DNA of 64,000 bases, taken from Flavobacteriaceae bacterium LYZ1037. Lineage in GTDB: Bacteria > Bacteroidota > Bacteroidia > Flavobacteriales > Flavobacteriaceae. Shown piece after piece: positions 23,975 through 46,923 of this stretch. The position numbers and the translations under genes are program-made. Location: contig QFWS01000003.1 of assembly GCA_003144015.1 (NCBI GenBank), positions 124,001 through 188,000 of the forward strand, read 5' to 3'. The notes beneath the pieces are model-generated. The model saw only the letters and a list, made by a program, of their open reading frames with translations. It made no database searches and was not told the DNA's origin. Within the stretch, counting starts at the first letter, position 1; every line of letters starts with the position of its first letter.

Positions 23975-24021
23975 AACATGACAAATATCATATCAAAATT
24001 CTTAGTATCTTTTAATCTTTG
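23975..24021 (+). promoter_or_regulatory. Fnr-type box and -7 element upstream of ccoI
   Basis: The box AACATGA-N6-TCATATC (23975-23994, core ATGACAAATATCAT) is followed after 22 bases from the core by AATCTTTG (24014-24021), one mismatch from TAnnTTTG. Box centre is thus near -41.5 from the expected start of transcription, the class II activator position. Confidence 0.78.
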
Positions 24022-24047
24022 TAAAAGGTATAAACGAGCAATCAATT

Positions 24048-26423
24048 ATGAAGCATTCTTTATGTTTCCACTGTGGTGATTCATGTGATCGTCATGTAAT
24101 TACATTTCAAGAGAAATTATTTTGTTGTAATGGGTGTAAAACCGTTTACGAGATTTTCTCTGAAAACGATTTAACTTGTTATTACGATTTACAAAATTCT
24201 CCAGGAGCCATTCCAAAAGAAATCCAAGGTAAATACGATTTTTTGGAACAACAAAAAATAATTGATAAGTTACTTGAGTTTAATAATGAAAACACACAAA
24301 TTGTTACATTATACATTCCTCACATACATTGTAGTTCTTGTATTTGGATTTTAGAAAACCTCAATAAATTAAACCCTGGAATTTCGTCTTCGCAAGTTAA
24401 TTTTGGAAAGAAAAATGTTCGAATCACATTTAATTCAATAACATGCTCCTTAAAAGACGTTGTCTTATTAATAAGTTCCATAGGTTACGAACCATATATT
24501 AGTTTAGACGATTTTAAAACAGGCAAAAACAACGTTAACAGATCTTTAATATACAAATTAGGGATTGCTGGTTTTGCTTTTGGAAACGTCATGTTTCTTT
24601 CGTTTCCAGAATATTTTGAAGTTGGCGAATACTGGTTAGAACAGTACAAGCATTTGTTTCGTTGGCTGATGTTTGCTTTTTCTGTTCCAGTTATATTTTA
24701 TTCTGCTCAAGATTATTTTATTTCAGCTCATAAAGGACTGTGTTCCAGAATTTTAAATATTGATGTGCCTATTGCGCTTGGTGCAGCAGTTTTGTTTTTA
24801 AGAAGTACCGTTGAAATAATTTTCGATTATGGTTCTGGATTTTTCGACAGTTTAACTGGTTTGATATTTTTCCTACTTCTAGGAAGATTTTTTCAACAAA
24901 AAACTTATGCTTATCTATCCTTTGAACGCGATTATAAATCTTATTTCCCTATTGCAGTAACCAAAGTAACTTCTGATGGGAAAGAAATACCCACTCAAGT
25001 TTATGATGTAAAGAAAGGTGACAGATTACTTATTAGAAACGAAGAATTAATTCCTGTGGATGGTATTTTAATTAGTGGTAATGCATCTATAGATTATAGT
25101 TTTGTAACTGGAGAGTCTGAAACCGTATCCAAACAATCTGGCGACAAACTATTTGCTGGAGGAAAACAAACTTCAGGAGGTATAGAAATGGATGTTTTAA
25201 AAAGCGTTGAACAAAGTTATTTAACACAACTTTGGAGCAACGATGTTTTTAGTAAAAACAAAGAAGATGGTTTTACAACGCTAACAAATGCAATTAGTAA
25301 AAAATTCACTTTCACCGTTCTTGCCATTGCTTTTATATCTACAGCATATTGGTTATTTGTTGATCCTTCTAAAGCTATTAATGTCTTTACTGCTGTTTTA
25401 ATTATTGCCTGCCCATGTGCCATTGCACTCTCTGCTCCTTTTACATTTGGAAACTTATTACGGATTTTTGGAAAACTAAAATTTTATGTAAAAAACGCAT
25501 CAGTTATTGAACAATTAGCCGAAGTAAACACCATAATTTTCGATAAAACAGGAACTATTACTACTAGCCAAAAAAGTCACGCAACCTACCAAGGCGAAGC
25601 TTTGAGTGCTTCGGAAGAAATGCTCCTAAAAAATACGCTTCGTGGTTCAAATCATCCATTAAGTAGAACTTTATATCAAATTTTAGATGAACATAATATT
25701 ATTACTTTAAATCGTTTTGAAGAACACTTAGGTAAAGGCATCGAGGCCTCTCATAACGATACAAATATTAAAATTGGATCTGCAAATTTTGTAGGAAACT
25801 TAGCAGACACAAGTGTGTTAAACACATCTGTTCACATTAGTACAAATAATATTTACAAAGGTAAATATACCTTCCATAATAATTATAGAAAAGGCTTGTC
25901 TAAACTTTTTAATACGTTAAAAAAGGATTACGATTTAGTAATTCTATCTGGTGATAACGAAGGAGAACAAGAAAATCTAAAAAAAATATTACCTTCTAAA
26001 ACCAAGCTAATTTTTAATCAAAAACCAAACGATAAATTAGAATATATAAAATACCATCAAACAGAAGGTGCCAAGGTGCTTATGGTAGGAGATGGACTTA
26101 ATGATGCGGGTGCTTTGGCTCAAAGTAATGTAGGTATTTCTATATCAGAAAACGTGAATGTATTCTCTCCTGCTTGTGATGCTATTTTAGATGCTTCAAA
26201 ATTTAATCAAATAATTAATTATATTAGAGCATCAAAAAGCGCTATAAAAATTATAAAATGGAGTTTTGTATTGTCTTTTTTATATAACACAATAGGGCTT
26301 TATTTTGCTGTAACTGGACAGTTAGCTCCAGTAATTGCTGCAATTTTAATGCCGTTAAGTTCTATTAGTATTGTAGTTTTTACAACTATTGCTACTAATT
26401 TGTTAGGAAGAAGATTAGAATGA
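24048..26423 (+). CDS. ccoI: Copper-translocating P-type ATPase CcoI (FixI)
   Basis: A 791-residue P1B-type ATPase that supplies copper for assembly of the cbb3 oxidase. The N-terminus is a cysteine-rich segment (CFHCGDSC, CCNGCKTVYE) followed by a heavy-metal-associated domain with HCSSCIW (about residue 98). Membrane spans follow, with the CPC metal site at residues 455-457 (IIACPCAIALSAP). The phosphorylation motif is DKTGTIT (about 499) and the hinge is GDGLNDAGAL (about 684). The putative ferredoxin-like Cys region at the N-terminus is typical of CcoI rather than CopA exporters. An Fnr-type box precedes it, and ccoS and ccoNO follow 80 bases downstream behind their own Fnr-type box. Confidence 0.93.
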   Translation: MKHSLCFHCGDSCDRHVITFQEKLFCCNGCKTVYEIFSENDLTCYYDLQNSPGAIPKEIQGKYDFLEQQKIIDKLLEFNNENTQIVTLYIPHIHCSSCIWILENLNKLNPGISSSQVNFGKKNVRITFNSITCSLKDVVLLISSIGYEPYISLDDFKTGKNNVNRSLIYKLGIAGFAFGNVMFLSFPEYFEVGEYWLEQYKHLFRWLMFAFSVPVIFYSAQDYFISAHKGLCSRILNIDVPIALGAAVLFLRSTVEIIFDYGSGFFDSLTGLIFFLLLGRFFQQKTYAYLSFERDYKSYFPIAVTKVTSDGKEIPTQVYDVKKGDRLLIRNEELIPVDGILISGNASIDYSFVTGESETVSKQSGDKLFAGGKQTSGGIEMDVLKSVEQSYLTQLWSNDVFSKNKEDGFTTLTNAISKKFTFTVLAIAFISTAYWLFVDPSKAINVFTAVLIIACPCAIALSAPFTFGNLLRIFGKLKFYVKNASVIEQLAEVNTIIFDKTGTITTSQKSHATYQGEALSASEEMLLKNTLRGSNHPLSRTLYQILDEHNIITLNRFEEHLGKGIEASHNDTNIKIGSANFVGNLADTSVLNTSVHISTNNIYKGKYTFHNNYRKGLSKLFNTLKKDYDLVILSGDNEGEQENLKKILPSKTKLIFNQKPNDKLEYIKYHQTEGAKVLMVGDGLNDAGALAQSNVGISISENVNVFSPACDAILDASKFNQIINYIRASKSAIKIIKWSFVLSFLYNTIGLYFAVTGQLAPVIAAILMPLSSISIVVFTTIATNLLGRRLE

Positions 26424-26436
26424 TTAAAAATAAACA

Positions 26437-26483
26437 AATATGATAAAAATCATATTTTTAAAACGGTTACAAAAGTATTTTTG
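26437..26483 (+). promoter_or_regulatory. Fnr-type box and -7 element upstream of ccoS-ccoNOQP
   Basis: A perfect palindrome AATATGA-N6-TCATATT (26437-26456) is followed, 22 bases after its 14-bp core, by TATTTTTG (26476-26483), which fits TAnnTTTG. A second TAACTTTG at 26489-26496 could act as an alternative promoter. The 5' leader to ccoS would be about 16 bases from the first element. Confidence 0.82.
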
Positions 26484-26503: not shown

Positions 26504-26695
26504 ATGAGTGCTATTTATATATTATTAGGTATCAGCATTTTAGTTGCTATCTTCTTTTTCATAATCTTTATTATGGCGGTTAGAAGTGGGCAATTTGACG
26601 ATGGTTATACGCCTTCAGTACGCATGCTTTTTGAAGATGAATTAGTAAAAAAACAAACAGAGACAACAAATAAAAAACCAAAAAAGACTAATTAA
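26504..26695 (+). CDS. ccoS: cbb3 oxidase assembly protein CcoS
   Basis: A 63-residue protein with one N-terminal membrane span (about residues 3-26) followed by the family signature RSGQFDDGYTPSVRMLFED. CcoS is needed to load haem and copper into the catalytic subunit of cbb3 oxidase. The length is normal. It is the first gene of the structural operon and lies 5 bases before ccoNO. Confidence 0.93.
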   Translation: MSAIYILLGISILVAIFFFIIFIMAVRSGQFDDGYTPSVRMLFEDELVKKQTETTNKKPKKTN

Positions 26696-26700
26696 CTATT

Positions 26701-28893
26701 ATGGAAGTACAACAATTTTATTACGATAACAAAGTCGTTAGGAATTTCCTTTATGCAACAATTTTATGGGGAGTTGTAGGAATGTTGGTAGGGTTACTAT
26801 TAGCATTTATGTTTTTATTCCCGAATTTAACCGATGGTATTTCTTGGTTAAGTTTTGGGCGATTAAGACCTTTACATACAAATGCTGTAATTTTCGCTTT
26901 TGTTGGAAATGCTATTTTCGCAGGTGTATATTACTCAACCCAACGCTTACTTAAAGCTAGAATGTATAGCGATGTATTAAGTAAAATAAATTTCTGGGGG
27001 TGGCAGTTAATTATTGTTGGCGCAGCAATAACTCTTCCTTTAGGTTTTTCTACATCTAAAGAATATGCAGAGTTAGAATGGCCGTTCGATATTGCTATTG
27101 CAGTTGTTTGGGTAGTATTTGGCGCCAATTTAATTGGAACCATGATTAGAAGGAGACAACGTCATCTTTATGTCGCTCTTTGGTTTTATTTAGCAACCTT
27201 TGTAACTGTTGCTGTTCTTCATATATTTAATAGTTTAGAAGTTCCTGTAAGTGCTTTTAAAAGTTATTCTGTTTATGCTGGAGTTCAAGATGCTTTAGTT
27301 CAATGGTGGTATGGACACAATGCCGTTGCGTTTTTCTTAACTACTCCTTTTTTAGGTCTAATGTATTATTTTGTGCCAAAAGCAGCTAATAGACCTGTAT
27401 ATTCTTATAGATTATCTATTATACATTTTTGGTCCTTAATCTTTATATACATTTGGGCAGGACCACACCATTTATTATATACTGCTTTACCAGAATGGGC
27501 TCAAAATTTAGGAGTTGCGTTCTCAATTATGTTATTAATGCCTTCTTGGGGAGGGATGATAAACGGGTTGTTAACGCTACGTGGTGCATGGGACAAAGTA
27601 CGTACTGATCCTGTTTTAAAATTCATGGTTGTAGCGATTACTGGTTATGGTATGGCAACCTTTGAAGGACCAATGTTATCTCTTAAAAATGTAAATGCTA
27701 TTGGCCATTATACAGATTGGATTATTGCACACGTACATGTTGGTGCTTTAGCTTGGAACGGCTTTTTAGCTTTCGGTATGATTTATTGGTTAATACCTAG
27801 ATTAGTTAAATCTAAATTATATTCAAACGCTTTAGCAAACTTCCATTTCTGGATTGGTACTTTAGGTATCATTATGTATGCTCTACCTCTATATGTTGCT
27901 GGTTTTACCCAAGCAAGTATGTGGAAACAGTTTAATCCAGATGGGACTTTAGTTTACGGGAACTTTTTAGAAACAGTTACCGAAATTATGCCAATGTATT
28001 GGATGAGAGCTATTGGGGGTACTCTGTATCTAACTGGGATGTTAGTCTTAGTTTATAACGTCATTCAAACTATAAGACATGGGGCTCAAGTTGTAGATGA
28101 ACTTGCTGAAGCACCTGCTTTACAAAACGTTTCTAAGAAACGTACAGCTGGCGAAGGATGGCACACATGGTTAGAACGTAAACCAATTAGATTAACTATT
28201 TATGCCACTATAGCGATCTTAATTGGGGGAATTGTACAGATTGTTCCAACCATTATGGTGAAATCTAATATTCCAACAATAACAAGTGTGAAACCTTACA
28301 CACCTTTAGAGTTAGAAGGACGTGACATATACATTCGTGAAGGTTGTGTTGGATGTCACTCACAAATGATTCGCCCCTTTAGAAGTGAAGTAGAACGTTA
28401 TGGAGAATATTCTAAAGCAGGAGAGTATGTTTACGACCATCCATTCCTTTGGGGTAGTAAACGTACAGGTCCAGATTTACACCGAATTGGTGGGAAGTAT
28501 TCAGATAACTGGCACTTAAACCACATGTACGATCCACAAAGCACATCTTCTGGCTCCATAATGCCAGCTTATCAATGGTTGGTAAGAGATGAATTGGATA
28601 AATCCAATACAGAAACCAAACTAAGAGCTATGGTATCACTAGGTGTTCCTTACACAGAAGAATATATTGCCAATGCACAACAACATATGCTAGAGCAAGG
28701 AACTCAAATTGAGAAAAACTTGTATTCCGATCCAGATTTTGCTGAAACTTACGAAGCAGACAAACAAGCTGGTGGCGAAGATTTTATTGAAATGCGCAAT
28801 CGTGAAATAGTAGCTATAATTGCTTACTTACAACGATTAGGCACAGATATTAAAGTACAAGATTTAGACGAATCAGCAACCACAATAAACTAA
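26701..28893 (+). CDS. ccoNO: cbb3 cytochrome oxidase, fused subunits I and II (CcoN-CcoO)
   Basis: A 730-residue fusion. The first about 480 residues form the polytopic haem-copper oxidase subunit CcoN, with histidine-bearing helices (GRLRPLHTNAVIFAF; WWYGHNAVAFFL for the copper ligands; GPHHLLYTALP; DWIIAHVHVGALAWNG). A linker and one span (about 500-520) lead to the CcoO monohaem cytochrome: GRDIYIREGCVGCHSQMIRP (haem motif near residue 549) and GSIMPAYQWL with the axial Met. CcoN reduces oxygen to water with high affinity; CcoO passes electrons. The N-O fusion is the usual Bacteroidota arrangement. CcoQ and CcoP follow directly. Confidence 0.96.
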   Translation: MEVQQFYYDNKVVRNFLYATILWGVVGMLVGLLLAFMFLFPNLTDGISWLSFGRLRPLHTNAVIFAFVGNAIFAGVYYSTQRLLKARMYSDVLSKINFWGWQLIIVGAAITLPLGFSTSKEYAELEWPFDIAIAVVWVVFGANLIGTMIRRRQRHLYVALWFYLATFVTVAVLHIFNSLEVPVSAFKSYSVYAGVQDALVQWWYGHNAVAFFLTTPFLGLMYYFVPKAANRPVYSYRLSIIHFWSLIFIYIWAGPHHLLYTALPEWAQNLGVAFSIMLLMPSWGGMINGLLTLRGAWDKVRTDPVLKFMVVAITGYGMATFEGPMLSLKNVNAIGHYTDWIIAHVHVGALAWNGFLAFGMIYWLIPRLVKSKLYSNALANFHFWIGTLGIIMYALPLYVAGFTQASMWKQFNPDGTLVYGNFLETVTEIMPMYWMRAIGGTLYLTGMLVLVYNVIQTIRHGAQVVDELAEAPALQNVSKKRTAGEGWHTWLERKPIRLTIYATIAILIGGIVQIVPTIMVKSNIPTITSVKPYTPLELEGRDIYIREGCVGCHSQMIRPFRSEVERYGEYSKAGEYVYDHPFLWGSKRTGPDLHRIGGKYSDNWHLNHMYDPQSTSSGSIMPAYQWLVRDELDKSNTETKLRAMVSLGVPYTEEYIANAQQHMLEQGTQIEKNLYSDPDFAETYEADKQAGGEDFIEMRNREIVAIIAYLQRLGTDIKVQDLDESATTIN

Positions 28894-28899
28894 TAAATC

Positions 28900-29085
28900 A
28901 TGTTAAAATTTGCAAAAAATTATATGGATAGTATAGAGGGAATCGAAATTTTCCCTATCATTTCCTTATTGATATTTTTCACTTTTTTTGTGGTATTGTT
29001 TTGGTGGGTTTTTACTGCCAAAAAGGAGTATATCGACGAAGTAAGTGACTTGCCACTAGATAACCAAAAAGACCAAATATTATGA
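28900..29085 (+). CDS. ccoQ: cbb3 oxidase small subunit CcoQ
   Basis: A 61-residue single-span protein. The hydrophobic stretch is at about residues 18-40 (FPIISLLIFFTFFVVLFWWV), followed by a charged tail. Size and position between ccoNO and ccoP identify it as CcoQ, which stabilises the oxidase complex. Its last codons overlap the ccoP start by 4 bases (ATGA), indicating translational coupling. Confidence 0.88.
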   Translation: MLKFAKNYMDSIEGIEIFPIISLLIFFTFFVVLFWWVFTAKKEYIDEVSDLPLDNQKDQIL

Positions 29086-29957
29086 GACATTTAATCCCTT
29101 CATGGGTAAGAGTACCCGTTATATTTTTTATTGTTTTTTCATTAGTAGAATATTTTACTAATTCAGGTAAAATGCCTGCGTTTGTAGAGTATCCCATGGT
29201 GCTACTGTTTTTGGTTTTTATTCTTTTGTTAATAATTGCTATAGAGGCCATTGTTAGTTCTATAGAGAATATTCTTTATCAGAGTTTAGACAAGGAAGCC
29301 AAGGCTAGATATGATGCTAAAAAGCAACAGCCTTCTAAATTAGGTGTTTGGTTAGAAACAGTATATAAAAAATCTTTAGGCCAAAAACCAATTAAAGAAG
29401 AACATGAAATTGTATTAGATCATAATTACGATGGTATTAAAGAATTAGATAACGATCTTCCGCCTTGGTGGTTGTATGGCTTCTATGCTTCAATCATATT
29501 TGCTGTAATTTATTTAGTGAAGTTTGAAGTTTTTGAAAGTTATGATCAATATGATGAGCTTGAAACCGAGTATGCTGAAGCTAAATTAGCCATAGAAGAA
29601 TATAAGAAAACAGCCAAGGATTTAGTAGATTTTAATACAGTAGAGCTTTTAACAAGTGCATCCGATTTAAGTAATGGAAAATCAATATACGAAGCCAATT
29701 GTGTGGCATGTCACCAAGCAGATGGAGGAGGTGGTATTGGACCAAACCTAACTGATGAATATTGGATTTTAGGTGGAGGTATTAAAAACGTCTTTAAAAC
29801 AGTCTCTGAGGGTGGTAGAAACGGCAAAGGAATGATTGCCTGGAAACAAAGTTTAAAACCATCAGAAATTGCTCAAGTATCCAGTTATATCCTACAGTTT
29901 TCAGGTACAACACCTGCAAAACCTAAAGAAGCAGAAGGAGAAATTTGGACAGAATAA
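29082..29957 (+). CDS. ccoP: cbb3 oxidase cytochrome c subunit CcoP, single-haem form
   Basis: A 291-residue membrane cytochrome. Two hydrophobic segments are visible (about residues 7-60, and 128-150 with PPWWLYGFYASIIFAVIYLV), the second carrying the CcoP N-terminal family signature. A cytochrome c domain follows, with the haem motif CVACH at residues 207-211 and GMIAWKQ for the axial Met. Classical proteobacterial CcoP has two CXXCH motifs; only one is present here. The extra N-terminal membrane helices are typical of Bacteroidota versions. It feeds electrons to CcoO/CcoN. ccoG begins 81 bases later behind a 12-bp inverted repeat. Confidence 0.93.
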   Translation: MRHLIPSWVRVPVIFFIVFSLVEYFTNSGKMPAFVEYPMVLLFLVFILLLIIAIEAIVSSIENILYQSLDKEAKARYDAKKQQPSKLGVWLETVYKKSLGQKPIKEEHEIVLDHNYDGIKELDNDLPPWWLYGFYASIIFAVIYLVKFEVFESYDQYDELETEYAEAKLAIEEYKKTAKDLVDFNTVELLTSASDLSNGKSIYEANCVACHQADGGGGIGPNLTDEYWILGGGIKNVFKTVSEGGRNGKGMIAWKQSLKPSEIAQVSSYILQFSGTTPAKPKEAEGEIWTE

Positions 29958-29977
29958 ATAACAAAATCAATAGATTT

Positions 29978-30019
29978 AAGAATTAAGACCACATCTTCCA
30001 ACCAAATGTCTTAATTCTT
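29978..30019 (+). promoter_or_regulatory. Long hairpin between ccoP and ccoG
   Basis: AAGAATTAAGAC (29978-29989) is perfectly inverted as GTCTTAATTCTT (30008-30019), with an 18-base loop. No T run follows, so it is not a standard terminator. In mRNA it would be a 12-bp stem that could protect the ccoNOQP 3' end or reduce read-through to ccoGH. The function is inferred. Confidence 0.6.
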
Positions 30020-30038
30020 AACTCTTTAATTTAAAGTC

Positions 30039-31463
30039 ATGGAAGTTCCAGAAAACGAATCATTTAGAGACACCATAGGCACATTAACTGAAGATGGAAA
30101 ACGTGCTTGGGTATATCCTAAAAAACCAAGTGGAAGATTTTATGAATATCGTAAAATAGTTAGCTACATTCTATTATTATTTTTATTTGCTGCTCCATTT
30201 ATTAAAATTAATGGAAACCAGTTTTTATTATTTAATATTTTAGAACGACGCTTTAACATTTTTGGACTCCCTTTTTGGCCACAAGACTTCCATCTCTTTG
30301 TAATTTCCATGATTATAGGAGTTATATTTATAGCTCTTTTTACCGTTAGTTTTGGTAGAATCTTCTGTGGATGGATTTGTCCTCAAACCATCTTCATGGA
30401 AATGGTTTTCCGAAGAATTGAATATTGGATTGATGGAGACAGAAACAAACAACGCAGGTTAGACAACCAACCATGGAATGCAGAAAAAATTAGAAAACGC
30501 AGCTTAAAGTGGTTTATTTTTGTAATTATTTCGTTTCTAATAGCCAATGTATTTTTAGCATACCTCATTGGAAGTGATAAACTTTTACAATATATCGTTG
30601 AAGGTCCTCTAGAACATACAGGAACCTTATTTCCTCTTATTATTTTCACAGCTGTATTCTATTTTGTTTTTGCATGGTTTAGAGAACAAGTTTGTATTAT
30701 TGCTTGTCCTTACGGTAGATTGCAAGGAGTGCTTTTAGATGATAAGTCCATAATTGTAGCCTACGATCATAAAAGAGGTGAAGGCGAGAATGGAAGAAAG
30801 AAATTTAGAAAAGGAGAAGACAGAGAAGCTTTAGGACATGGAGATTGCATAGATTGTTTACAATGTGTACATGTATGCCCTACCGGAATTGATATAAGAA
30901 ATGGTACGCAATTAGAGTGTGTAAACTGTACTGCTTGTATAGACGAATGCGACCATATTATGGAAAGTATTAATCTACCCAAGGGCTTAATTAGATATGC
31001 TAGTGAGGACGAAATTGAAAAGAAGGAGACGTTTAAAGTTACTGCAAGAATGAAAGGCTATATAGCTGTTCTTGTAATTTTAACAGGAGTCCTTTTTGGA
31101 ATGATGTCTTTAAGGAACGATGTAGAAGCACGTGTATTAAGATTACCAGGACAACTTTATGAACATAAAGAAGGCGACATTATTAGTAACGTTTTTACAT
31201 ATAAACTTATTAATAAAACCACCAAAAACATTGAAAACATTCACTTTAAACTAAGAAAATATAAGGGTGAAATAATATTAGTTTCAAACTCTAATACATT
31301 TGTAGTTCCAGAACAGGGCATGGCAGAAGGCACTTTGTTTATTGAAATTGAAAAGAAAAATTTAGAAGGAGATAAAAACAAACTTATGATTGAGGTCTAT
31401 AGTGGAGATGACTTAATTGAAACGACAACTGTAAACTTTTTGGCTCCTAGAAGTTATCATTAA
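30039..31463 (+). CDS. ccoG: cbb3 oxidase accessory iron-sulfur membrane protein CcoG (FixG/RdxA)
   Basis: A 474-residue membrane protein with about five spans and a polyferredoxin-like core. The N-terminal part shows the family pattern KRAWVYPKKPSGRFYEYRK and FGRIFCGWICPQTIFMEMVF. Two ferredoxin-type clusters follow: CIDCLQCVHVCP and CVNCTACIDECD (about residues 270-306). The C-terminal 110 residues form an Ig-like periplasmic domain. CcoG reduces Cu(II) to Cu(I) for insertion into cbb3 oxidase. It is followed by ccoH and a TauE/SafE-like gene, completing a CcoGHI-S accessory set split around the structural genes. Confidence 0.94.
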   Translation: MEVPENESFRDTIGTLTEDGKRAWVYPKKPSGRFYEYRKIVSYILLLFLFAAPFIKINGNQFLLFNILERRFNIFGLPFWPQDFHLFVISMIIGVIFIALFTVSFGRIFCGWICPQTIFMEMVFRRIEYWIDGDRNKQRRLDNQPWNAEKIRKRSLKWFIFVIISFLIANVFLAYLIGSDKLLQYIVEGPLEHTGTLFPLIIFTAVFYFVFAWFREQVCIIACPYGRLQGVLLDDKSIIVAYDHKRGEGENGRKKFRKGEDREALGHGDCIDCLQCVHVCPTGIDIRNGTQLECVNCTACIDECDHIMESINLPKGLIRYASEDEIEKKETFKVTARMKGYIAVLVILTGVLFGMMSLRNDVEARVLRLPGQLYEHKEGDIISNVFTYKLINKTTKNIENIHFKLRKYKGEIILVSNSNTFVVPEQGMAEGTLFIEIEKKNLEGDKNKLMIEVYSGDDLIETTTVNFLAPRSYH

Positions 31464-31518
31464 ATTTAAAACAATAAGTATTAACTAAAAGAGATTCTTG
31501 CTTTGCAGGAAGTTAGAT

Positions 31519-31965
31519 ATGAAAATAAATTGGGGAACAGGTATCGTTATTGCTTTTATATGCTTTATAAGCTTTATTATGTATTTTGTTATAAATATGA
31601 ATACCAATAGTAAATACGATCATGATTTGGTTGTAGAAGAATACTATCAAGCAGAATTAGGCTTTCAGGATGAAATAAACAAAGAAGAACATGCAAAAAC
31701 ATTATCTGTAAACATTAGTTATAAAAATAGCGATGAAGGTTTATTAATCATTTTTCCTGAAAACTTAGAAACTCAAGAAATTACAGGAATGGTATCTTTA
31801 TATAGAACTTCTAATAAAAAACTTGATTTCGAACTACCTATTACTATTTCCAATAACACCATGCTTATTCCAAACAATAAACTGTTAAAAGGTAGATGGA
31901 ATTTAAAAGTAGATTGGAAATATCAAGATAATGCTTATTTATTCAAAAGAGAAATCATGTTTTAA
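31519..31965 (+). CDS. ccoH: cbb3 oxidase assembly protein CcoH (FixH-like)
   Basis: A 148-residue protein with one N-terminal membrane span (about residues 6-28, TGIVIAFICFISFIMYFVIN) and a periplasmic beta-rich domain. It carries the FixH/CcoH family features YDHDLVVEEYYQAELGFQDE and LKGRWNLKVDWKYQ. The ATG at 31519 is preferred; the frame could start 21 bases earlier at a TTG, but that only adds seven non-conserved residues. CcoH interacts with the oxidase during assembly. It is encoded 55 bases after ccoG and 44 bases before the TauE/SafE-like gene. Confidence 0.9.
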   Translation: MKINWGTGIVIAFICFISFIMYFVINMNTNSKYDHDLVVEEYYQAELGFQDEINKEEHAKTLSVNISYKNSDEGLLIIFPENLETQEITGMVSLYRTSNKKLDFELPITISNNTMLIPNNKLLKGRWNLKVDWKYQDNAYLFKREIMF

Positions 31966-32009
31966 GCATATTTAAAAACTACAATTCTCAAATTTATAAT
32001 ACTAAGTTT

Positions 32010-36373: not shown

Positions 36374-36376
36374 ACA

Positions 36377-38927: not shown

Positions 38928-40156
38928 ACTATTTTTTTCATTTTAGGATTATTATCCAGTAAATTATCTGGCGTAAATACAGGCGATACTTTTTCAGAAA
39001 AATCAATAATATCTATAAATAAACTACGCAATAATATGATAGTTTCTGGTGTTCGGTTTACGATATAAGAAAACAACTTTACTGGTCTATATGGAATGTC
39101 TCCAATCCCATTTTTGTTTAAATCGTAACCTGTGTAATTGCTCCAATAATTTTTATCGAAAAGATTATCGTTAATGTTGCTGTTATAAGAAATATCAAAA
39201 GAATTATATAGAAAGTTATTACTTGTAAAATGATTGGTATAACAAGCGCCACGTACTTTTATAGCCCAACCATTACTAATAAAATTATTGTTTTTATAGT
39301 TAATTCTATTAGAGCCTTCGATGTTAATACCAATAGTGTTATCTTTAAAAGTATTCCCTTCTATTTCGGCATCGTTAATTTCTTTTAGAAGCAAACCATA
39401 AGAGGCTGTTCCCCAGTTTTCTTTAAAAATGTTATTATACATTTTTATTTTTTTGGAAAACATCACTGCGACTCCTGCGCCATTATTTTCGAAGATATTA
39501 TCTTGATAAATATCGTCGTTAGAGAACATAAAATGTAATCCATAACGAACATTATTGGCACTTACATTGTTTTTAATTATACAATCATCAGAAAATTCTA
39601 GGTAAATTCCATCTCGAACATGTTCAATAAAATTATGTTCTATTTCTATATTCTTACTATACCATAATTGAATGCCATTTCCAGAATTGTATTCTTCAAC
39701 AGCATCTCCAATAATTTTATTATGAAATATTTTTCCATTGCGCCCTTTTTCAATATAAATTCCAAAAAAAAGTTTTTCCAATACCAGGTTTTGTATCACA
39801 AAATCATTACTTCTTTTGACACGAATGGCTGCATAATCTTCGGTATAGCTTGTTCCAACATTTATAATAAATAAGCCATCAACAGTAACGCTATCTGAAA
39901 CTATGGTAATTATTTCACCTTTCATTTCGCCATCAATTACTGGATAGTTTTTACCAATAATAGTTAATGGTTTATCTACTAAAATATTATACTCTTTGTA
40001 AGTCCCTTTTTTAACAACAATGGTATCGAAGCTTTTAGCAACTTTTATAGCATCATTTAATTTTGAAATCGGACAATCTTTGCATACCTCAATTGTTTGT
40101 GCATGCAAGCCTCCAACTAACAAAACAATTAAAAAAGATACAATCTTAATTTTCAT
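38921..40156 (-). CDS. nosD: NosD, periplasmic copper-processing protein
   Basis: A 411-residue exported protein (signal peptide MKIKIVSFLIVLLVGGLHAQ). It is built from right-handed beta-helix repeats rich in Asn (NNVSANNVRYGLHFMFSNDD, EGNTFKDNTIGINIEGSNRI), the CASH/NosD fold. It ends with the typical NosD segment YWSNYTGYDLNKNGIGDIPY. NosD takes copper from NosL and acts with NosFY on N2O reductase. It starts one base after the nosL stop and overlaps nosF. Confidence 0.94.
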   Translation of the reverse strand: MKIKIVSFLIVLLVGGLHAQTIEVCKDCPISKLNDAIKVAKSFDTIVVKKGTYKEYNILVDKPLTIIGKNYPVIDGEMKGEIITIVSDSVTVDGLFIINVGTSYTEDYAAIRVKRSNDFVIQNLVLEKLFFGIYIEKGRNGKIFHNKIIGDAVEEYNSGNGIQLWYSKNIEIEHNFIEHVRDGIYLEFSDDCIIKNNVSANNVRYGLHFMFSNDDIYQDNIFENNGAGVAVMFSKKIKMYNNIFKENWGTASYGLLLKEINDAEIEGNTFKDNTIGINIEGSNRINYKNNNFISNGWAIKVRGACYTNHFTSNNFLYNSFDISYNSNINDNLFDKNYWSNYTGYDLNKNGIGDIPYRPVKLFSYIVNRTPETIILLRSLFIDIIDFSEKVSPVFTPDNLLDNNPKMKKIVW

Positions 40157-40157
40157 G

Positions 40158-40598
40158 TTATTGTTCTTTAAATTGAATCAATAATTCGTTCCATGTATAA
40201 AGTGTTCCTTCTTTATCAGCTTGAACCATTTCAGCATCTTTTTTTGTTTTAAAAGCTGTTAAAAAAGCTCCCATAGGACTTGGAACATTTTTACTAATTA
40301 AAAAAGTAGCTTTGGTAGCGTCTACAAGTGTTTCTGGTTCTGTATATATGTTTGTTAGATATAGTTTTATTTCAGAGTCATCGAATTCTTTTTTAAAGTT
40401 TATCATACATTCTGAAGCATCAAACTTGTAAATTTTACCTTTATTTGTTACTATTTCGGCAGCATGTACTTTATCTACTATGGTCATTTTACAAAAATGA
40501 CACCCATCGTTTCCATAATCTATAGCTTGTGGCCCTACGTTACAACTAGCAAGCATCAATAGCATGACCACAAAGGAATATTGTTTTAATCTTTGCAT
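40158..40598 (-). CDS. nosL: NosL, copper-chaperone lipoprotein
   Basis: A 146-residue lipoprotein (lipobox LMLASC, Cys at 19). The Cu(I)-binding motif CHFCKMTIVDKVHAAE is at about residues 34-49, and the conserved Cys/Met follow in FDASECMINF. NosL delivers copper to apo-N2O reductase through NosD. Length and motif are standard. It lies 33 bases after the membrane protein gene and one base before nosD. Confidence 0.94.
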   Translation of the reverse strand: MQRLKQYSFVVMLLMLASCNVGPQAIDYGNDGCHFCKMTIVDKVHAAEIVTNKGKIYKFDASECMINFKKEFDDSEIKLYLTNIYTEPETLVDATKATFLISKNVPSPMGAFLTAFKTKKDAEMVQADKEGTLYTWNELLIQFKEQ

Positions 40599-40631
40599 AA
40601 TTTTAGTGTTTTATTTAAGAAATTAATAAGC

Positions 40632-41252
40632 TTACTCTTTTGCCTTTATTAAGCTAAATTTTCTACCTAACCAAAAAGCTACAAGAGTTAAAGACATACC
40701 AACAAACATCAAGTAACCACCTATATGTGGCAAAGATGTCACATCAAAATTCAATAGTTTTTGGTGTCCAAATAAAGGGGGTTTGTAAGACATTGGTGTC
40801 CCATCTGGATTGTTTAATTTTAAAATAGCATGTGGATCTAAATCACTTCCATATTCAGTGAGCCAATTATTAAAATCGTACATGCCTAATAAGCCTAAAA
40901 CAGACATTAGCACAAACCATCCAATAAAGAATTTATAACTTACTTTACCTGCAAATCCTAACAAACCAATAAGAACTCCTAGTAGGCTCATTCCAAGAAT
41001 GACTTTAGGAAAAACTGAAAACTCCCACATATCTTCTGCTTTCGGAATGGTTTTCATGCCTATATAATGATTTAAACCATCAATATTTTGAAGATCAAAT
41101 TCTTCGACACCTTGAATACCATCCAAGTAAATGTTCATTCCTAATGGTTCTGGATATTGTGGAGCACCAAGCATAATGTTCCATAAAGGGAATTTAAAAA
41201 GCCCAAGTAACAAAAGTGATCCGATTACCATTATAATTCCAGCCTTTTTCAT
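40632..41252 (-). CDS. nosB: Membrane protein of clade II nos clusters, NosB-like
   Basis: A 206-residue protein with about four membrane spans: an N-terminal signal-anchor, a pair near residues 84-125, and one near 175-195. Periplasmic loops contain QYPEPLGMNIYLDGIQGVEE and HAILKLNNPDGTPMSYKPP. Its place directly after nosZ and before nosL matches the membrane protein known as NosB, characteristic of clade II (atypical) nos clusters, whose exact function is unknown. I assign the name from position and topology, not from a motif I can verify. It has several candidate metal or haem ligands (His, Met) in the loops. Confidence 0.7.
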   Translation of the reverse strand: MKKAGIIMVIGSLLLLGLFKFPLWNIMLGAPQYPEPLGMNIYLDGIQGVEEFDLQNIDGLNHYIGMKTIPKAEDMWEFSVFPKVILGMSLLGVLIGLLGFAGKVSYKFFIGWFVLMSVLGLLGMYDFNNWLTEYGSDLDPHAILKLNNPDGTPMSYKPPLFGHQKLLNFDVTSLPHIGGYLMFVGMSLTLVAFWLGRKFSLIKAKE

Positions 41253-41396
41253 AATATGAATTATTATTTAGTTAACCATTTAGTTAATAGTGATTTAGAA
41301 GAAAGGCGAGAGAGACAAATCTACTCTCGCCTTATATAGGAAAATAAACACTAAAACAAAATTTTCCTAATTGTATAATATGGTTAATGATAAAAT

Positions 41397-43358
41397 TTAA
41401 TCTTCACCTAAAGACCATGATAGCTCTATGTTAGAGTCTGCTGGAGATACACGAATATATCCTTGCATTTCTTGGTGAAGTGCCGAACAGAAATCTGTAC
41501 AATAGAATGGCCAAACACCAACTTGTTTTGGCTCCCATGTTAAGGTTCTAGTTTGACCTGGAGCTATTAACAGCTCAGCGTTATTTGCACCAATCATAGC
41601 GAAACCGTGAGGTACATCGAAATCTTGCTCTAAATTAGTAACATGGAAGAATACTTTGTCTCCTACTTTAACACCTTCTATATTATCTGGTGAAAAGTGA
41701 CTACGTATCATGGTCATGTAAACATGCACATTTTTACCATCTCTAACTATTTTTGCTTCAGCATCGTTAGTTGCTTTTCTTGGGTGCTCATTTTCAGCTA
41801 GTCTATAGATTTTTTTCGAATTATTTTTAATGATTTCTGCTGGAATTGCTGCTGCATAATGTGGTTCGCCATGTGTAGGGAAATCTAAAAGTAATTCCAT
41901 TTTATCTCCAGAAATATCATATAGTTGTGCAGAATGCTCCATCTCTGGACCAACTGGTAAATAGCGATCTTTTGTAATTTTATTCATAGCGAACATATAT
42001 TTACCAAATGGCTCTCTTGAGTTTCCTCCAGGAATAGTTAAATGACCCACAGAGTAATACGTTGGTTTTCTATCAATAACTTCCCATGTTCCTAATTTCC
42101 ATTTTACAACTTCAGAAGAGATAAAGAACGTAGTATAAGCGTTTCCTTGACCATCAAATTCTGTATGTAAAGGTCCTAAACCTGGTTGTTCTACAGAACC
42201 TGCAAGCACGTCTTCGAATTTTAAAATTGGAATACCATAAGCATCGCCATCAAATTTTTTGTTTTCGATGGCATCTAACATTTTAGAAAATGAATGCACA
42301 GTTAGGTTAGCAGATAATTTACCATTACCTACAATGTACTCTCCTGAAGGATCCACATCACAACCATGAGGTGATTTTGGAGTTGGTAATAAGTAAACAG
42401 CTCCAGGAACTTCAGCTGGATTAACCACACGTACTTCTTTCTTCATGGTAGAAGTTGCTGTATGAGTTGCTTCATCATAAACATTATGAGCATAATTTGC
42501 TGGCATCATGGTACCACCACCATTATTTACATATTCTTCAATTTTCTTCCAGTTTATGGCTGCAATAAAATCTTTGTCGTTTTGTGAGGCATTTACTTCT
42601 AGCAATGTATTTGCTTCTTCTGTATTATATGTTGTAAAAAAGAACCAACCATGAGATTTTCCACGTCCAGGATGTGACAAATCGTAATTAAATCCTGGCA
42701 TTAACACTTGGAATTTAATATCCATATGGCCATGCTCTGGATCTACTGATATAAAAGACAAAGCCCCTTTAAAGTTTCCTTTATAATCTTTAATTGACAT
42801 ATCTCTTTGTGGCACTGGCACAGAAAAACGTGTTCCAGCAACTACATATTCAGTATTTTCAGTTATAAAAGATGAACTATGGTTTCCGGCACTATTCGGA
42901 ACTTCAATAATTTCTTCGGTTTCAAAGGTTTCAAGACTAATTCTTGCAATACGTGGTGTGTTGTTTCCATTAATAAAAACCCAACGGCCATCTAATTTAC
43001 CATTAGTTTGAGAAATGTCTGGATGATGAGAATCATCCCAAGGAATAAAACCATAAGAAGTTTCTAGCAATGGTTTAGTTTCTTCAGAATACCCATAACC
43101 ATTTGTTGGAAATTGTGAGAATACTGGAATCTCTTTAAACATTCGTCCAGATGGCAAACCGTAAACCGTTAGGTTTCCACTATATCCACCAGAAATGAAA
43201 GCGTAATGTGAATCATGTTCTCCTGGTGCAACATATACTTTCTCTGCATTACTCGATTTTAAAGCTCCACCCGTTTTGCTAGATTTTTGGTCGCCACAGC
43301 TTGTAAAAGCTACAACCGTAATTAAAAAACCTATTGTTAATTTATAAATGTTTTTCAT
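41397..43358 (-). CDS. nosZ: Nitrous oxide reductase, clade II (NosZ)
   Basis: A 653-residue enzyme that reduces N2O to N2, the last step of denitrification. The N-terminus is a Sec/lipoprotein-type signal (TVVAFTSC, Cys at 21) with no twin-arginine motif, which marks clade II. The seven-bladed propeller with CuZ histidines includes DSHHPDISQTNGKLDGR, SPHGCDVDPSGEYIVG, PLHTEFDGQGNAYTTFF and HGEPHYAAAIPAE. The C-terminal cupredoxin CuA domain has C620, C624, H628 and M631 (CTDFCSALHQEM). It is third in an operon headed by a cytochrome c and a FAS1 protein. NosR is absent, as expected for clade II. Confidence 0.97.
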   Translation of the reverse strand: MKNIYKLTIGFLITVVAFTSCGDQKSSKTGGALKSSNAEKVYVAPGEHDSHYAFISGGYSGNLTVYGLPSGRMFKEIPVFSQFPTNGYGYSEETKPLLETSYGFIPWDDSHHPDISQTNGKLDGRWVFINGNNTPRIARISLETFETEEIIEVPNSAGNHSSSFITENTEYVVAGTRFSVPVPQRDMSIKDYKGNFKGALSFISVDPEHGHMDIKFQVLMPGFNYDLSHPGRGKSHGWFFFTTYNTEEANTLLEVNASQNDKDFIAAINWKKIEEYVNNGGGTMMPANYAHNVYDEATHTATSTMKKEVRVVNPAEVPGAVYLLPTPKSPHGCDVDPSGEYIVGNGKLSANLTVHSFSKMLDAIENKKFDGDAYGIPILKFEDVLAGSVEQPGLGPLHTEFDGQGNAYTTFFISSEVVKWKLGTWEVIDRKPTYYSVGHLTIPGGNSREPFGKYMFAMNKITKDRYLPVGPEMEHSAQLYDISGDKMELLLDFPTHGEPHYAAAIPAEIIKNNSKKIYRLAENEHPRKATNDAEAKIVRDGKNVHVYMTMIRSHFSPDNIEGVKVGDKVFFHVTNLEQDFDVPHGFAMIGANNAELLIAPGQTRTLTWEPKQVGVWPFYCTDFCSALHQEMQGYIRVSPADSNIELSWSLGED

Positions 43359-43382
43359 TGTTATAATATTTTTAATTTGTGT

Positions 43383-43964
43383 TTATTCTGTTGGTGGTAA
43401 CATAACTTTATCTACCACATGTACAATTCCATTTCCTGCTGGAACACTTGCAATTATTTTTGCACCTCCAATATACACGTCGTCACCTTTTACTTCTACT
43501 GCAACATATTCATTATTGGCTTGCCCTAATTTTTTAAACTTTTTTAGAAAGTCTTTAGAATAGTTTCCAGGCGTTACATGATACTTCAAGATATTTGCTA
43601 AAGCATCTTTGTTTTCTGGTTTTAGAAGGCCTTCAACTGTACCATCTGGCAAAGCTGCAAACGCTTCGTTTGTTGGTGCAAATACCATTAATGGACCAGC
43701 ATTAACTAATACATTTTCTAACTGAGCCGCTTGCACTGCTGCAACAAGTGTTGTATGGTCTGGTGAACCTATTGCTATTTGCAAAACATTTGGTGTAGCT
43801 TCATCGTCTTGGATAAATGCTTGCCCTTGTCTTTCAGGTGCTTCTGTTGATGCCACTTTTGTTGATTCTTCTGATTGACCTGTTGTATTAGCTTCATTTT
43901 TGCAGCTAAAAAACAAGACAACTAGAATTATCGTGACTAAAAATTTTAGGTTAGTAGTTTTCAT
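43383..43964 (-). CDS. FAS1 (fasciclin) domain lipoprotein in the nos operon
   Basis: A 193-residue lipoprotein (lipobox VLFFSC, Cys at 21). A low-complexity linker is followed by one FAS1 domain (about residues 65-193): TTLVAAVQAAQLENVLVNAG, VFAPTNEAFAALP, LKYHVTPGNY and NGIVHVVDKVMLP. FAS1 domains mediate adhesion or bind small hydrophobic ligands; none is an established part of N2O reductase. It lies 6 bases after the cytochrome c gene and 24 bases before nosZ, so it is surely co-transcribed. A scaffold or electron-partner docking role at the membrane surface is conceivable but unproven. Confidence 0.88.
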   Translation of the reverse strand: MKTTNLKFLVTIILVVLFFSCKNEANTTGQSEESTKVASTEAPERQGQAFIQDDEATPNVLQIAIGSPDHTTLVAAVQAAQLENVLVNAGPLMVFAPTNEAFAALPDGTVEGLLKPENKDALANILKYHVTPGNYSKDFLKKFKKLGQANNEYVAVEVKGDDVYIGGAKIIASVPAGNGIVHVVDKVMLPPTE

Positions 43965-43970
43965 ATTAAA

Positions 43971-44477
43971 TTATTTAAGTGTTCTAAAATATTCTAATAC
44001 AGCTCTAGCTTCTGCTTCTGTTAAATTCTGATTTGCCATTGGCGAACCATTAAATTCCATTAACAATTCTTTGGCTAGAGGATCTGATTTTGTCATTTCT
44101 TCTGGATTTAGAATCATGTTCATAACCCATTCTGGAGTTCTACGTTCTAGAATGCCAGTTGGAGCTGGACCGATAAATTTTTTGTCGGTTCTATGACAAG
44201 CTGTACACATTTTTTTAAATACATCTTCTCCTTTAGTAGCCATAGACTGATCTATATCTGCAGATAAGTCTACTGATTTAATTGGGCCAACTCCCTTATT
44301 AGTTAAGTCGATCTTCTCAGATGCTTTAACTGTTTTTTCTACTTTAGGGGCCTCTTTTTTCTCTGTTGCCTCCTTTTTTTGGTAAGAAAATGTTTCTTCT
44401 TTTTTCTCTTCTTTTCCTCCACAACTTACAAGTAGTGAAATAAATAAAACGGTAATAATTTTTAGTGTTAACTTCAT
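43971..44477 (-). CDS. Monohaem cytochrome c lipoprotein, first gene of the nos operon
   Basis: A 168-residue lipoprotein (lipobox SLLVSC, Cys at 19). A Glu/Lys-rich linker of about 60 residues precedes a class I cytochrome c domain. The haem motif is CTACH (about residue 92), and an axial-type Met is in NGSPMANQNLTEAEARAVL. It is a likely electron donor to the CuA centre of NosZ encoded two genes later. The upstream region holds an Fnr-type box and a TAAATTTG promoter. Cytochromes at this place are common in clade II clusters, where quinol oxidation differs from the NosR pathway. Confidence 0.88.
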   Translation of the reverse strand: MKLTLKIITVLFISLLVSCGGKEEKKEETFSYQKKEATEKKEAPKVEKTVKASEKIDLTNKGVGPIKSVDLSADIDQSMATKGEDVFKKMCTACHRTDKKFIGPAPTGILERRTPEWVMNMILNPEEMTKSDPLAKELLMEFNGSPMANQNLTEAEARAVLEYFRTLK

Positions 44478-44500: not shown

Positions 44501-44547
44501 CAAATTTAAGGGCTAGATTTAGAATAAAATATGATATAAATCATATT
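44501..44547 (-). promoter_or_regulatory. Fnr-type box and -7 element upstream of the nos operon
   Basis: A perfect palindrome AATATGA-N6-TCATATT lies at 44528-44547. Twenty-two bases from its core, read on the minus strand, is TAAATTTG (plus CAAATTTA, 44501-44508). The leader to the cytochrome c ATG is about 19 bases. Confidence 0.83.
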
Positions 44548-44604: not shown

Positions 44605-44638
44605 AAACTCTGTAAAAGTTACTAATTAAAAATCTTAT

Positions 44639-45472
44639 TTAAATTTTAAAGGTCATGACTGGTAAAGTAGAATGATTAGCAATATCTTCAGAGATACTAC
44701 CTTCAAAAAAATGAGCAACACCTTTTCTACCATGGGTGGCTACAGCAATAACGTCTGCACCAATAACATTTGAAAAATTTAAGATACCTTCTTCAATGCT
44801 ATAATCATTTACGTAATTAACTTCGTTCATTTTTTCAATTCCACCATCGGCTTTTCTTAAAAATGTTGCTACTTGTTTTTCTATTTCTGCAGAACTTCTA
44901 AATTTGGTGCCTGGCATATTTACATAAACCAAATGCATTTTTGAATCTAATTTTTTAGCCATTTCTTTGGCTCTTAGATATTGCTGTACAGCTTCTTCTG
45001 TAAAATCGCAAGCAAAAACCATATTTTCAAACTCCATTAATATTGGGTTATGTTTAATAACCAACACTGGAATGTCAGAATGCCTTACTACTTTCTCTGT
45101 ATTAGAGCCTACAAGAACTTCTTTAATACCACTTGCGCCTTGGGATCCCATAACTATTAAATCTGCTTGATTTTCTTTAGCAACTTCATTGACTTCGCTA
45201 AACACTTTAAAATGCTTAACAATAGGAGTCACTTTTATGTCTTTTAAATAGTCTTTATTTAAAAATTCTTTGAATTTTTTTTCTGCCAATTTTAAAAAGA
45301 AAAGAGATTCCAATTGTTTAATATTATCTGCTTTATTTATTACAGCTGTAGATATTTCCAACATGTGCAATGCTAGAATCTCAGCATTGTTTTTTCTTGC
45401 CAAAAAAGATGCTGCTTCTAAAGCATACTCAGAAAATTCTGAGAAGTCGACAGGTACAATTATTTTTTTCAT
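44639..45472 (-). CDS. Universal stress protein, tandem UspA domains (copy 2)
   Basis: A 277-residue double-UspA protein of the same length and layout as copy 1 at 36509-37342, clearly a paralogue (MKKIIVPVDFSEFSEYALEA; GSQGASGIKEVLVGSNTEKV; ATHGRKGVAHFFEGSISEDI). It lies 21 bases after hemN and before a strong terminator, so it is co-transcribed with hemN from a promoter bearing an Fnr-type box. A role in the low-oxygen state is suggested by this context only. Confidence 0.88.
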   Translation of the reverse strand: MKKIIVPVDFSEFSEYALEAASFLARKNNAEILALHMLEISTAVINKADNIKQLESLFFLKLAEKKFKEFLNKDYLKDIKVTPIVKHFKVFSEVNEVAKENQADLIVMGSQGASGIKEVLVGSNTEKVVRHSDIPVLVIKHNPILMEFENMVFACDFTEEAVQQYLRAKEMAKKLDSKMHLVYVNMPGTKFRSSAEIEKQVATFLRKADGGIEKMNEVNYVNDYSIEEGILNFSNVIGADVIAVATHGRKGVAHFFEGSISEDIANHSTLPVMTFKI

Positions 45473-45493
45473 TGTATTTGGTTGTATTTTTCT

Positions 45494-46858
45494 TTAAATA
45501 GTCATAGAAAACAATTGAGTTTCTGGCATTTTTTCTTGCAATAATAAATCGAATGCCATGCAAATGTTTCGTACATATGGTTTTCCTTTTTCTGTAACCT
45601 CTATGTTGTTTAAATTTATTTTTAACAAACCATCAGCTTCCATTTCTTGAAGTTTTACAAGTACTTCTGGAAGTTCTTTGAAATATGATTCATCTGTATC
45701 CCAAGATGTTTTAAACTGACACATAAGATTTAATATATGTTTTCTTATTATCAAGTCTATTTCGTATAAAATATGACCTCTATAAACAGGTATAATATTT
45801 TCGTTTATTAAATGATAGTATTCTTCTAATCCTTTTACGTTTTGTGCAAAACCATACCAGCTATCGCTTATGGAAGAGACGCCTAAACCAATCATAACCT
45901 GTGTTTTAGATGCTGTATAACCCATAAAATTTCTATGCAATTTATGCTGTTTTATAGATTTATAAAGAGCATCTGTTTTTAAGGCAAAATGGTCCATGCC
46001 AATTTCAACAAAACCAGCTTTGGCTAATAACTCTTTGCCTAATTCGTATTGTCTTCTTTTGGTTTCAGGAGATGGCAAATCTTCATCTTTAAAACCTCTT
46101 TGTCCATTTCCTTTTATCCATGGTACATGCGCATAACTATAGAATGCCAAACGATCTGGCATAAGTTCTTTAGTCTTTCTTATGGTCTCTTCTACGTGTT
46201 CAATAGTTTGAAATGGTAATCCGAAAATAATATCATGACTAACAGATGTATATCCAATTTCTCTAGCTTCCTCTGTAACGCGTTTAACATTTTCGAAAGG
46301 CTGAATTCTGTGAATAGCTATCTGTACCGTTTTATTATAATCTTGAACTCCAAAACTAACCCGTCTAAAACCTAGATTGTAAAGCGTTTGTAAATGATCT
46401 TTGGTGGTATTGTTTGGATGCCCTTCAAAACTAAATTCGTAGCCTTCAGCTAAAGTGGCTCTTTTTAATAAACCATCTATTAGGCGTTTTAAGTTAGCTG
46501 TCGAAAAAAAGGTTGGTGTACCACCTCCCAAATGAATTTCTTTAATATTTGGTTTCGAATCAAATAAATTACAATACAAATCCCATTCTTTAAGAACAGC
46601 TGTTATATATGGAGATTCAACTTCATGCCGTTTAGTAATTCGTTTATTACAACCACAAAAAGTGCATAAGCTTTCGCAAAAAGGCAAATGCAAATACAGA
46701 CTTAGACCTTCAGTTTTATTAGTCTCATTAAACGATTTTACTAACGACGTTTTCCATTTTTTAGATGAAAACGTATTAATATCCCAATAAGGAACTGTTG
46801 GATAACTGGTGTATCGTGGTCCAGCAACATTGTATTTATTTACTAACGACTTTTTCAT
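45494..46858 (-). CDS. hemN: Oxygen-independent coproporphyrinogen III dehydrogenase (HemN)
   Basis: A 454-residue radical SAM enzyme that makes protoporphyrinogen IX without oxygen. The N-terminal part has YNVAGPRYTSYPTVPYWD. The radical SAM cluster motif is CESLCTFCGC (about residues 55-64), followed by EIHLGGGTPTFFS and, near the C-terminus, an HemN C-terminal domain. The ATG at 46858 is chosen because the promoter -7 element (46877-46884) and predicted transcription start (about 46872) lie downstream of the other possible Met at 46879. It supplies haem for the cbb3 oxidase and cytochromes. The second usp gene follows. Confidence 0.95.
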   Translation of the reverse strand: MKKSLVNKYNVAGPRYTSYPTVPYWDINTFSSKKWKTSLVKSFNETNKTEGLSLYLHLPFCESLCTFCGCNKRITKRHEVESPYITAVLKEWDLYCNLFDSKPNIKEIHLGGGTPTFFSTANLKRLIDGLLKRATLAEGYEFSFEGHPNNTTKDHLQTLYNLGFRRVSFGVQDYNKTVQIAIHRIQPFENVKRVTEEAREIGYTSVSHDIIFGLPFQTIEHVEETIRKTKELMPDRLAFYSYAHVPWIKGNGQRGFKDEDLPSPETKRRQYELGKELLAKAGFVEIGMDHFALKTDALYKSIKQHKLHRNFMGYTASKTQVMIGLGVSSISDSWYGFAQNVKGLEEYYHLINENIIPVYRGHILYEIDLIIRKHILNLMCQFKTSWDTDESYFKELPEVLVKLQEMEADGLLKINLNNIEVTEKGKPYVRNICMAFDLLLQEKMPETQLFSMTI

Positions 46859-46876
46859 TACGAAGTTATTCAGATA

Positions 46877-46923
46877 CAAATGTATATTTAAGACACTTTT
46901 TAAAATATGACTTTTATCATATT
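46877..46923 (-). promoter_or_regulatory. Fnr-type box and -7 element upstream of hemN
   Basis: A perfect palindrome AATATGA-N6-TCATATT lies at 46904-46923. Twenty-two bases from its core, read on the minus strand, is TACATTTG (plus CAAATGTA, 46877-46884). It fixes the hemN start at 46858. The spacing to the divergent sodC promoter does not fit, so hemN is the target. Confidence 0.83.

Follow-up and report, generated by a model that had tools for sequence, protein, structure and literature searches.

What controls a group of genes for high-affinity respiration, copper supply, nitrous oxide (N2O) reduction and haem synthesis in the marine Flavobacteriaceae bacterium LYZ1037? The question is raised by a 64,000-nucleotide stretch of its genome (the window), in which ccoI, ccoS-NOQP, a copper operon, the nos operon and hemN-usp are each preceded by a palindromic TGA-N6-TCA box and by a TAnnTTTG promoter element. 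An earlier note, made from the letters of the window, had proposed that these promoters form one low-oxygen regulon under an Fnr-like regulator encoded beside the first box. The five-box observation is confirmed, and the distance of 22 base pairs (bp) between box and element is conserved across the family and the class. The system is described here as an FNR-like regulon whose sensor is non-canonical; it probably works in the manner of FNR.

Boxes and promoter elements in the window

The first box is located between the candidate regulator gene and ccoI, and is shared by both (23978..23991, plus strand; ATGACAAATATCAT). The ccoI -7 element (24014..24021, plus strand; AATCTTTG) deviates from TAnnTTTG by one mismatch and stands 22 bp from the 14-bp core of the box. 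The ccoS-NOQP box (26440..26453, plus strand; ATGATAAAAATCAT) is followed by an exact element (26476..26483, plus strand; TATTTTTG). The remaining three pairs are found on the minus strand and also comprise exact elements: the copper operon box (36407..36420; CTGATTTTAATCAT) with its -7 element (36377..36384; TAAATTTG), the nos operon box (44531..44544; ATGATTTATATCAT) with its element (44501..44508; TAAATTTG), and the hemN-usp box (46907..46920; ATGATAAAAGTCAT) with its element (46877..46884; TACATTTG). Core and element are 22 bp apart in five of five cases, four with an exact element, which bears out the invariant distance claimed in the earlier note. The extended palindrome AATATGA-N6-TCATATT is likewise perfect in three boxes (ccoS, nos and hemN), as had been stated. 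The copper core starts with CTGA and is therefore perfect as TGA-N6-TCA only.

The frequency expected by chance was estimated from 100 dinucleotide shuffles of the window. The pattern scanned was TGA-N6-TCA followed after 23 bp by TAnnTTTG; it is defined on the 12-bp core and corresponds to 22 bp from the 14-bp core. In its exact form it occurs four times in the window, against a shuffle mean of 0.05 and a maximum of 1. With at most one mismatch, five sites are counted against a mean of 1.34 and a maximum of 5, so that the ccoI site adds no significance within the window and rests on its conservation. When the spacing is disregarded, the box shows no enrichment within this stretch (67 sites against 63.9 expected, two mismatches). 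It is the combination of box and spacing, rather than the palindrome, that stands out.

In Flavobacterium psychrophilum, TAnnTTTG occupies positions -12 to -5 relative to mapped transcription starts, as reported in part of PMC9723704. Together with the 22-bp spacing, this places the box centre at -41.5, the class II activator position which had been proposed for these promoters. The layout is that of an FNR-type class II promoter, with a TGA-N6-TCA box centred at -41.5, the position being derived from the F. psychrophilum starts and the starts in LYZ1037 being predicted ones. For the copper operon the predicted start lies within the first ATG, and its mRNA may be leaderless or may have a different start. 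The -7 element of this operon stops three bases short of that ATG (window 36371-36384). On its other side, the hemN box has a TAnnTTTG element at a distance of 40 bp that is oriented towards a Cu/Zn superoxide dismutase gene (window 46907-46968); the box centre would be near -59.5, a class I-like distance.

Conservation of the spacing

The family comparison comprised 120 genomes, with the reversed pattern as control. Xanthomarina gelatinilytica belongs to the genus of the window, as the same-genus genome G038 and the named locus L203 have their match at an identical position. The exact spaced pattern is present in 99 of these genomes and counts 478 sites against 12 for the control. Among 150 matches listed from 11 genomes, 66 have a spacing of 22 and any other spacing accounts for at most 8. 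A second set of 80 named loci (1.53 Mb) holds 83 sites at spacing 22, 18 at spacing 8 and at most 4 at every other spacing; the base before TGA is an A in 97% of 87 exact sites.

The same distance recurs in front of the individual targets. Of 74 named loci, 66 have the exact spacing of 22 upstream of ccoN, and the other eight are without an exact match. For the nos operon and hemN, 30 loci each were counted, the best-scoring of the 120 genomes searched: the exact spacing is found upstream of the nos cytochrome in 26 loci and upstream of hemN in 28, and tolerance of one mismatch raises both numbers to 29. No exact spacing other than 22 was found before ccoN, the nos operon or hemN in these 74, 30 and 30 loci. 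Of 75 relatives having the box, 72 show the ccoI element at spacing 22 when one mismatch is tolerated, and in only one is it exact. At the first position of this element, about 85% of 77 relatives have A or G and only 4% have T, while the spacing and the remaining positions are conserved. In the named relatives, ccoI is also preceded by a conserved 5′ leader (GGTATAAATGAGCAAA-like; window 24022-24047). A short leader open reading frame before ccoI was considered and dropped, its ATG being absent in the window and in some relatives.

In a class-wide draw of 149 genomes, 71 contain the exact pattern, four of them from the family of the window. Near distant homologs of the candidate regulator, 22 is again the commonest spacing, accounting for 8 of the 14 spaced matches found in 26 loci. 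Within the family, 356 of the 478 sites lie in 69 genomes with a close ortholog of the regulator, 120 in 34 genomes with weaker matches only and 2 in 17 genomes without a match. Site numbers follow the presence of regulator relatives; this is suggestive only, and the 17 genomes without a match are mostly small.

The candidate regulator

The gene beside the first box (23264..23941, minus strand) encodes a protein of 225 residues with the cyclic-nucleotide-binding β-roll and the Crp-type helix-turn-helix of the CRP/FNR superfamily (PF00027, PF13545). An ortholog (E<1e-60) is found in 69 of the 120 family genomes and is divergent from ccoI in 64 of these 69, one being a short match; this makes it the best candidate for the regulator, and the candidate activator of the boxes. 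The box is positioned between regulator and ccoI in 77 of the 78 named loci having a ccoI match, and at most 260 bp from the regulator in 75 of all 80. In a tree of 121 proteins, three family members of the class-wide draw and two small-genome rows fall within the ortholog group, and the 69 orthologs are therefore not the complete clade.

The earlier description of this gene as Fnr-like stands as far as the CRP/FNR family is concerned; canonical FNR it is not, because of the third N-terminal cysteine, the model score and the outer base of the box. The Fnr model is its best NCBIfam match, at 89.5 bits against a cut-off of 228. Since these three FNR features fail, we call the protein FNR-like and not FNR.

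The host encodes three PF13545 proteins. The recognition residues T-E..I-R are found in the 225-residue regulator only, and the other two proteins have V-E..I-R (L061) and R-V..S-R. The T-E..I-R residues are shared by 64 of 69 orthologs and by 28 of 29 class-wide homologs, which are the best-scoring loci of the 149-genome search and include three from the window's own family. Positions 180 and 181 of CRP have been linked to half-site bases (part of PMC1274295); the present pairing of T at 180 with an outer A in the box would extend this rule.

Fusions of a receiver domain with a CRP protein (L198, L200) occur in family genomes having boxes. In the five fusions read, E..I-R is present in four and T-E..I-R in two. 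The receiver domain was confirmed in two fusions, one from a genome without a close ortholog (G040, among the 34 mentioned above) and one from a genome with it (G061). In G061 and G110, the fusion adjoins the ortholog of the 225-residue regulator.

The cysteine arrangement

The cluster of FNR is held by Cys 20, 23, 29 and 122 (part of PMC4601167). In the alignment with Aliivibrio fischeri FNR, C20, C23 and C122 pair with C4, C7 and C106 of the 225-residue regulator, in which a cysteine at the place of C29 is absent; the full Gram-negative ligand set is not found there. Exactly four cysteines are invariant in the 69 orthologs: C4, C7, C53 and C106. The same four occur in 28 of the 29 class-wide homologs, the exception having neither the CxxC motif nor C53. 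As fourth ligand, C29 and C59 were rejected, being present in only 38 and 48 of the 69 orthologs, respectively.

The 121 aligned CRP proteins reveal how C53 is distributed. In 78 of them CxxC is not followed by a further cysteine 3-10 residues on, and all 78 have C53. The canonical paralog class has the third N-terminal cysteine and no C53 (12 of 12). Both the third cysteine and C53 are present in 21 proteins, and 10 have neither CxxC nor C53. In the predicted model of the regulator, residues 50-56 and 103-109 form strands, which we take to be neighbours in the β-roll.

The two-faced ccoI box

On the side of the regulator, the ccoI box faces a second -7-like element (23962..23969, minus strand; TAATTTTA), with one mismatch and 8 bp from the core. 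When at most one mismatch is allowed, 68 of 75 named relatives have an element at this distance, which is exact in 19 of them; the corresponding numbers for the family set are 37 of 64 loci, with 12 exact. Autorepression would be expected because the box would lie across the core promoter of the regulator; in its active form, the regulator probably restrains its own production by covering this promoter.

Putative target genes in the window

Downstream of the first box, the ccoI-like gene encodes a heavy-metal P-type ATPase (24048..26423, plus strand), which matches PF00122 and PF12156 above cut-off and NCBIfam copper-ATPase models below cut-off. The adjacent set (26504..32711, plus strand) comprises ccoS, a ccoN-O fusion, ccoQ, ccoP, ccoG, FixH and a 233-residue membrane protein; ccoN, ccoO and ccoG match above cut-off and ccoP below, and ccoS and ccoQ are names taken over as labels from the earlier note.

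The other three sets are encoded on the minus strand. The copper operon (32945..36379) contains a cysteine-containing 133-residue protein, a YtkA-like lipoprotein and a TonB receptor resembling TonB-copper. Its label is kept with reservation, as it relies on the YtkA-like match and on a TonB-copper match below the NCBI cut-off (122.7 against 472 bits). The nos operon (37445..44477) comprises a cytochrome c, a fasciclin-like protein, a Sec-type nosZ, a 206-residue protein, nosL, nosD and ABC genes. Here nosZ and nosD match above cut-off; nosL, nosF, nosY and the fasciclin-like protein were named by eye. Finally, hemN, the oxygen-independent coproporphyrinogen oxidase, and a universal stress protein (44639..46858) were identified by profile matches.

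Further sites in the host genome

In the 3.19-Mb genome of LYZ1037, ATGA-N6-TCAT followed by TAnnTTTG at 8-38 bp occurs 10 times, against 4 for the reversed control. Six of the ten have the 22-bp spacing, and one at 21 bp shares its palindrome with one of the six. On the 12-bp core, 11 exact sites are found at 22 bp and 2 one base closer. Nine of the 11 were read, C31:202872 being left out; C23:346569 lies inside a coding gene, as judged by eye.

Exact-spacing boxes precede nirK with a SUMF1-like gene and a SCO1 gene, and also nadA-nadB. These sites belong to the same programme as those of the window, in agreement with the claim that the targets fit one programme. The same kind of box is present before a thioredoxin-like protein, a FabK-like oxidoreductase and a ferredoxin reductase with ferredoxin; the thioredoxin-like protein and the ferredoxin reductase fit a low-oxygen programme less well. 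Matches to nirK, nadA and SCO1 are above curated cut-offs, those to thioredoxin and FabK below, and nadB, the ferredoxin pair and SUMF1 were named by eye.

When one mismatch is allowed, the genome holds 76 sites against 56 controls, for which reason the HPF, pfkA, TonB, usp, dnaJ, second-CRP and globin-like cases are candidates only. One of these one-mismatch boxes (L053, C12:570415) lies upstream of genes for a small membrane protein, a globin-like protein (named by eye, without a Pfam match) and ResB-like cytochrome c assembly, and adjoins another CRP gene.

Relation to known regulators

The FNR of Gram-negative bacteria (Escherichia coli, A. fischeri) shares with the LYZ1037 regulator the CRP fold, the N-terminal CxxC and the cysteine at the C122 position. 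It also acts from a TGA-N6-TCA box at -41.5 on similar kinds of targets. In contrast, the LYZ1037 protein is devoid of the third N-terminal ligand cysteine and has an invariant C53 in the β-roll. The box, ATGAY-N4-RTCAT, differs in its outer base from the FNR consensus TTGAT-N4-ATCAA, and the promoter has a Bacteroidota -7 element, unlike Gram-negative FNR promoters. The FNR of Gram-positive bacteria (Bacillus subtilis) is comparable in that the fold carries its cluster there in a second arrangement (part of PMC12937710). However, a C-terminal cluster cysteine of that type was not found, as no column after C106 in the 69-row alignment has cysteine as its commonest residue.

HcpR, HcpR2, NnrR and DNR are likewise CRP/FNR-family regulators of nitrogen-oxide genes. 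HcpR2 is known from Bacteroides and Porphyromonas, with the motif GTAAC-N4-GTTAC and, in most Bacteroides, a predicted regulon of hcp only (part of PMC1274295); the box described here differs from this motif and does not assign the LYZ1037 protein to HcpR2. Among solved structures, the best sequence match is CrpPg of Porphyromonas gingivalis (2GAU, 5.5e-30), which is without cysteines at the places of C53 and C106. CrpPg is described as effector-independent, with a role in biofilm formation (parts of PMC12937710 and PMC12040651).

In a partial-nitritation reactor, a CRP/FNR protein of Flavobacteriales was hypothesised to be MalR, and the study reports, in the part cited, no evidence that this family controls denitrification in those organisms (PMC8510549). 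Our literature search, with subscription journals and preprints outside its reach, found no description of the present low-oxygen regulon.

Proposed mechanism and alternatives

We consider it fairly likely that the regulator is an FNR-like class II activator which receives a low-oxygen signal through a cluster on C4, C7, C53 and C106 and represses its own gene. The CRP/FNR-family protein (23264-23941), presumably as a dimer, would bind the ATGA-N6-TCAT boxes at -41.5 and, by class II activation, bring the sigma-A polymerase to promoters of the TAnnTTTG type. Low oxygen is the most likely signal and would be sensed by an iron–sulfur cluster on the four cysteines. When oxygen is scarce, the cluster would form and switch on the cbb3 oxidase, ccoI, copper uptake, the N2O and nitrite reductases, hemN and nadAB. 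The regulon interpretation of the earlier note is supported; the identity of the regulator, the cluster and the control by oxygen, like binding, activation and autorepression, are what we infer. Two observations weigh against this picture. The predicted regulator model is somewhat closer to cAMP-binding CRPs and to 2GAU than to A. fischeri FNR, and, as regards autorepression, an exact element stands 22 bp away on the regulator side in 6 of the 64 family-set loci.

To a wider proposal we give even chances. It holds that Bacteroidota have a third oxygen-sensing FNR build (CxxC, C53 and the C122 equivalent), with a class-wide low-oxygen regulon written in a rigid box-22 bp-TAnnTTTG grammar, a single divergent box through which ccoI is activated (22 bp) and the regulator repressed (8 bp), and a grammar shared with receiver-CRP fusions in lineages without the sensor.

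The most serious alternative retains regulator and box and changes the chemistry: the cysteines could constitute a thiol switch or a zinc site, or respond to nitric oxide (NO) or a redox signal, without an oxygen-labile cluster. It would account for the absence of one canonical FNR cysteine. The presence of nirK and nosZ among the targets also fits an NO signal, and NO could build up because no COX1-family NO reductase was found in the host genome, where ccoN and one other protein were the only members of this family found. However, three of the four cysteine positions are those of FNR ligands and the fourth cysteine is kept alongside. Furthermore, the cbb3 oxidase and haem-biosynthesis enzymes increase at low oxygen in F. 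psychrophilum (part of PMC9723704, in whose main text a word search finds neither Fnr nor Crp). We regard this alternative as unlikely.

It is less probable still, and in our view quite doubtful, that another CRP-type protein reads the boxes, either L061 in the host or a receiver-CRP fusion in relatives, in which case the gene beside the first box would have a subordinate role. The residues V-E..I-R of L061 and its position next to the L053 box would suit this role; V is also found at the recognition position in two orthologs, boxes persist in the 34 genomes without a close ortholog, and two fusions have a confirmed receiver domain. However, position 190 is V in L061 and T in 64 of 69 orthologs, most genomes preserve the linkage of regulator, box and ccoI, and the host has no more than its three PF13545 proteins to choose from. 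Ordinary AT-rich palindromes preceding sigma-A promoters by chance are hardly credible and were rejected: the box alone shows no enrichment in the window and most one-mismatch sites of the genome may be chance, but the exact-spacing statistics of the window, the 120 family genomes and the named, nos and hemN loci contradict chance, with a spacing histogram that peaks at 22 bp.

Biological significance

Flavobacteria are abundant, and relatives of the first nos gene, preceded by the same promoter, are found repeatedly in the family. The fixed promoter grammar is a simple and falsifiable predictor of low-oxygen genes across Bacteroidia, including those of N2O sinks. If the four cysteines do bind a cluster, their arrangement would be a ligand set new to this classic sensor.

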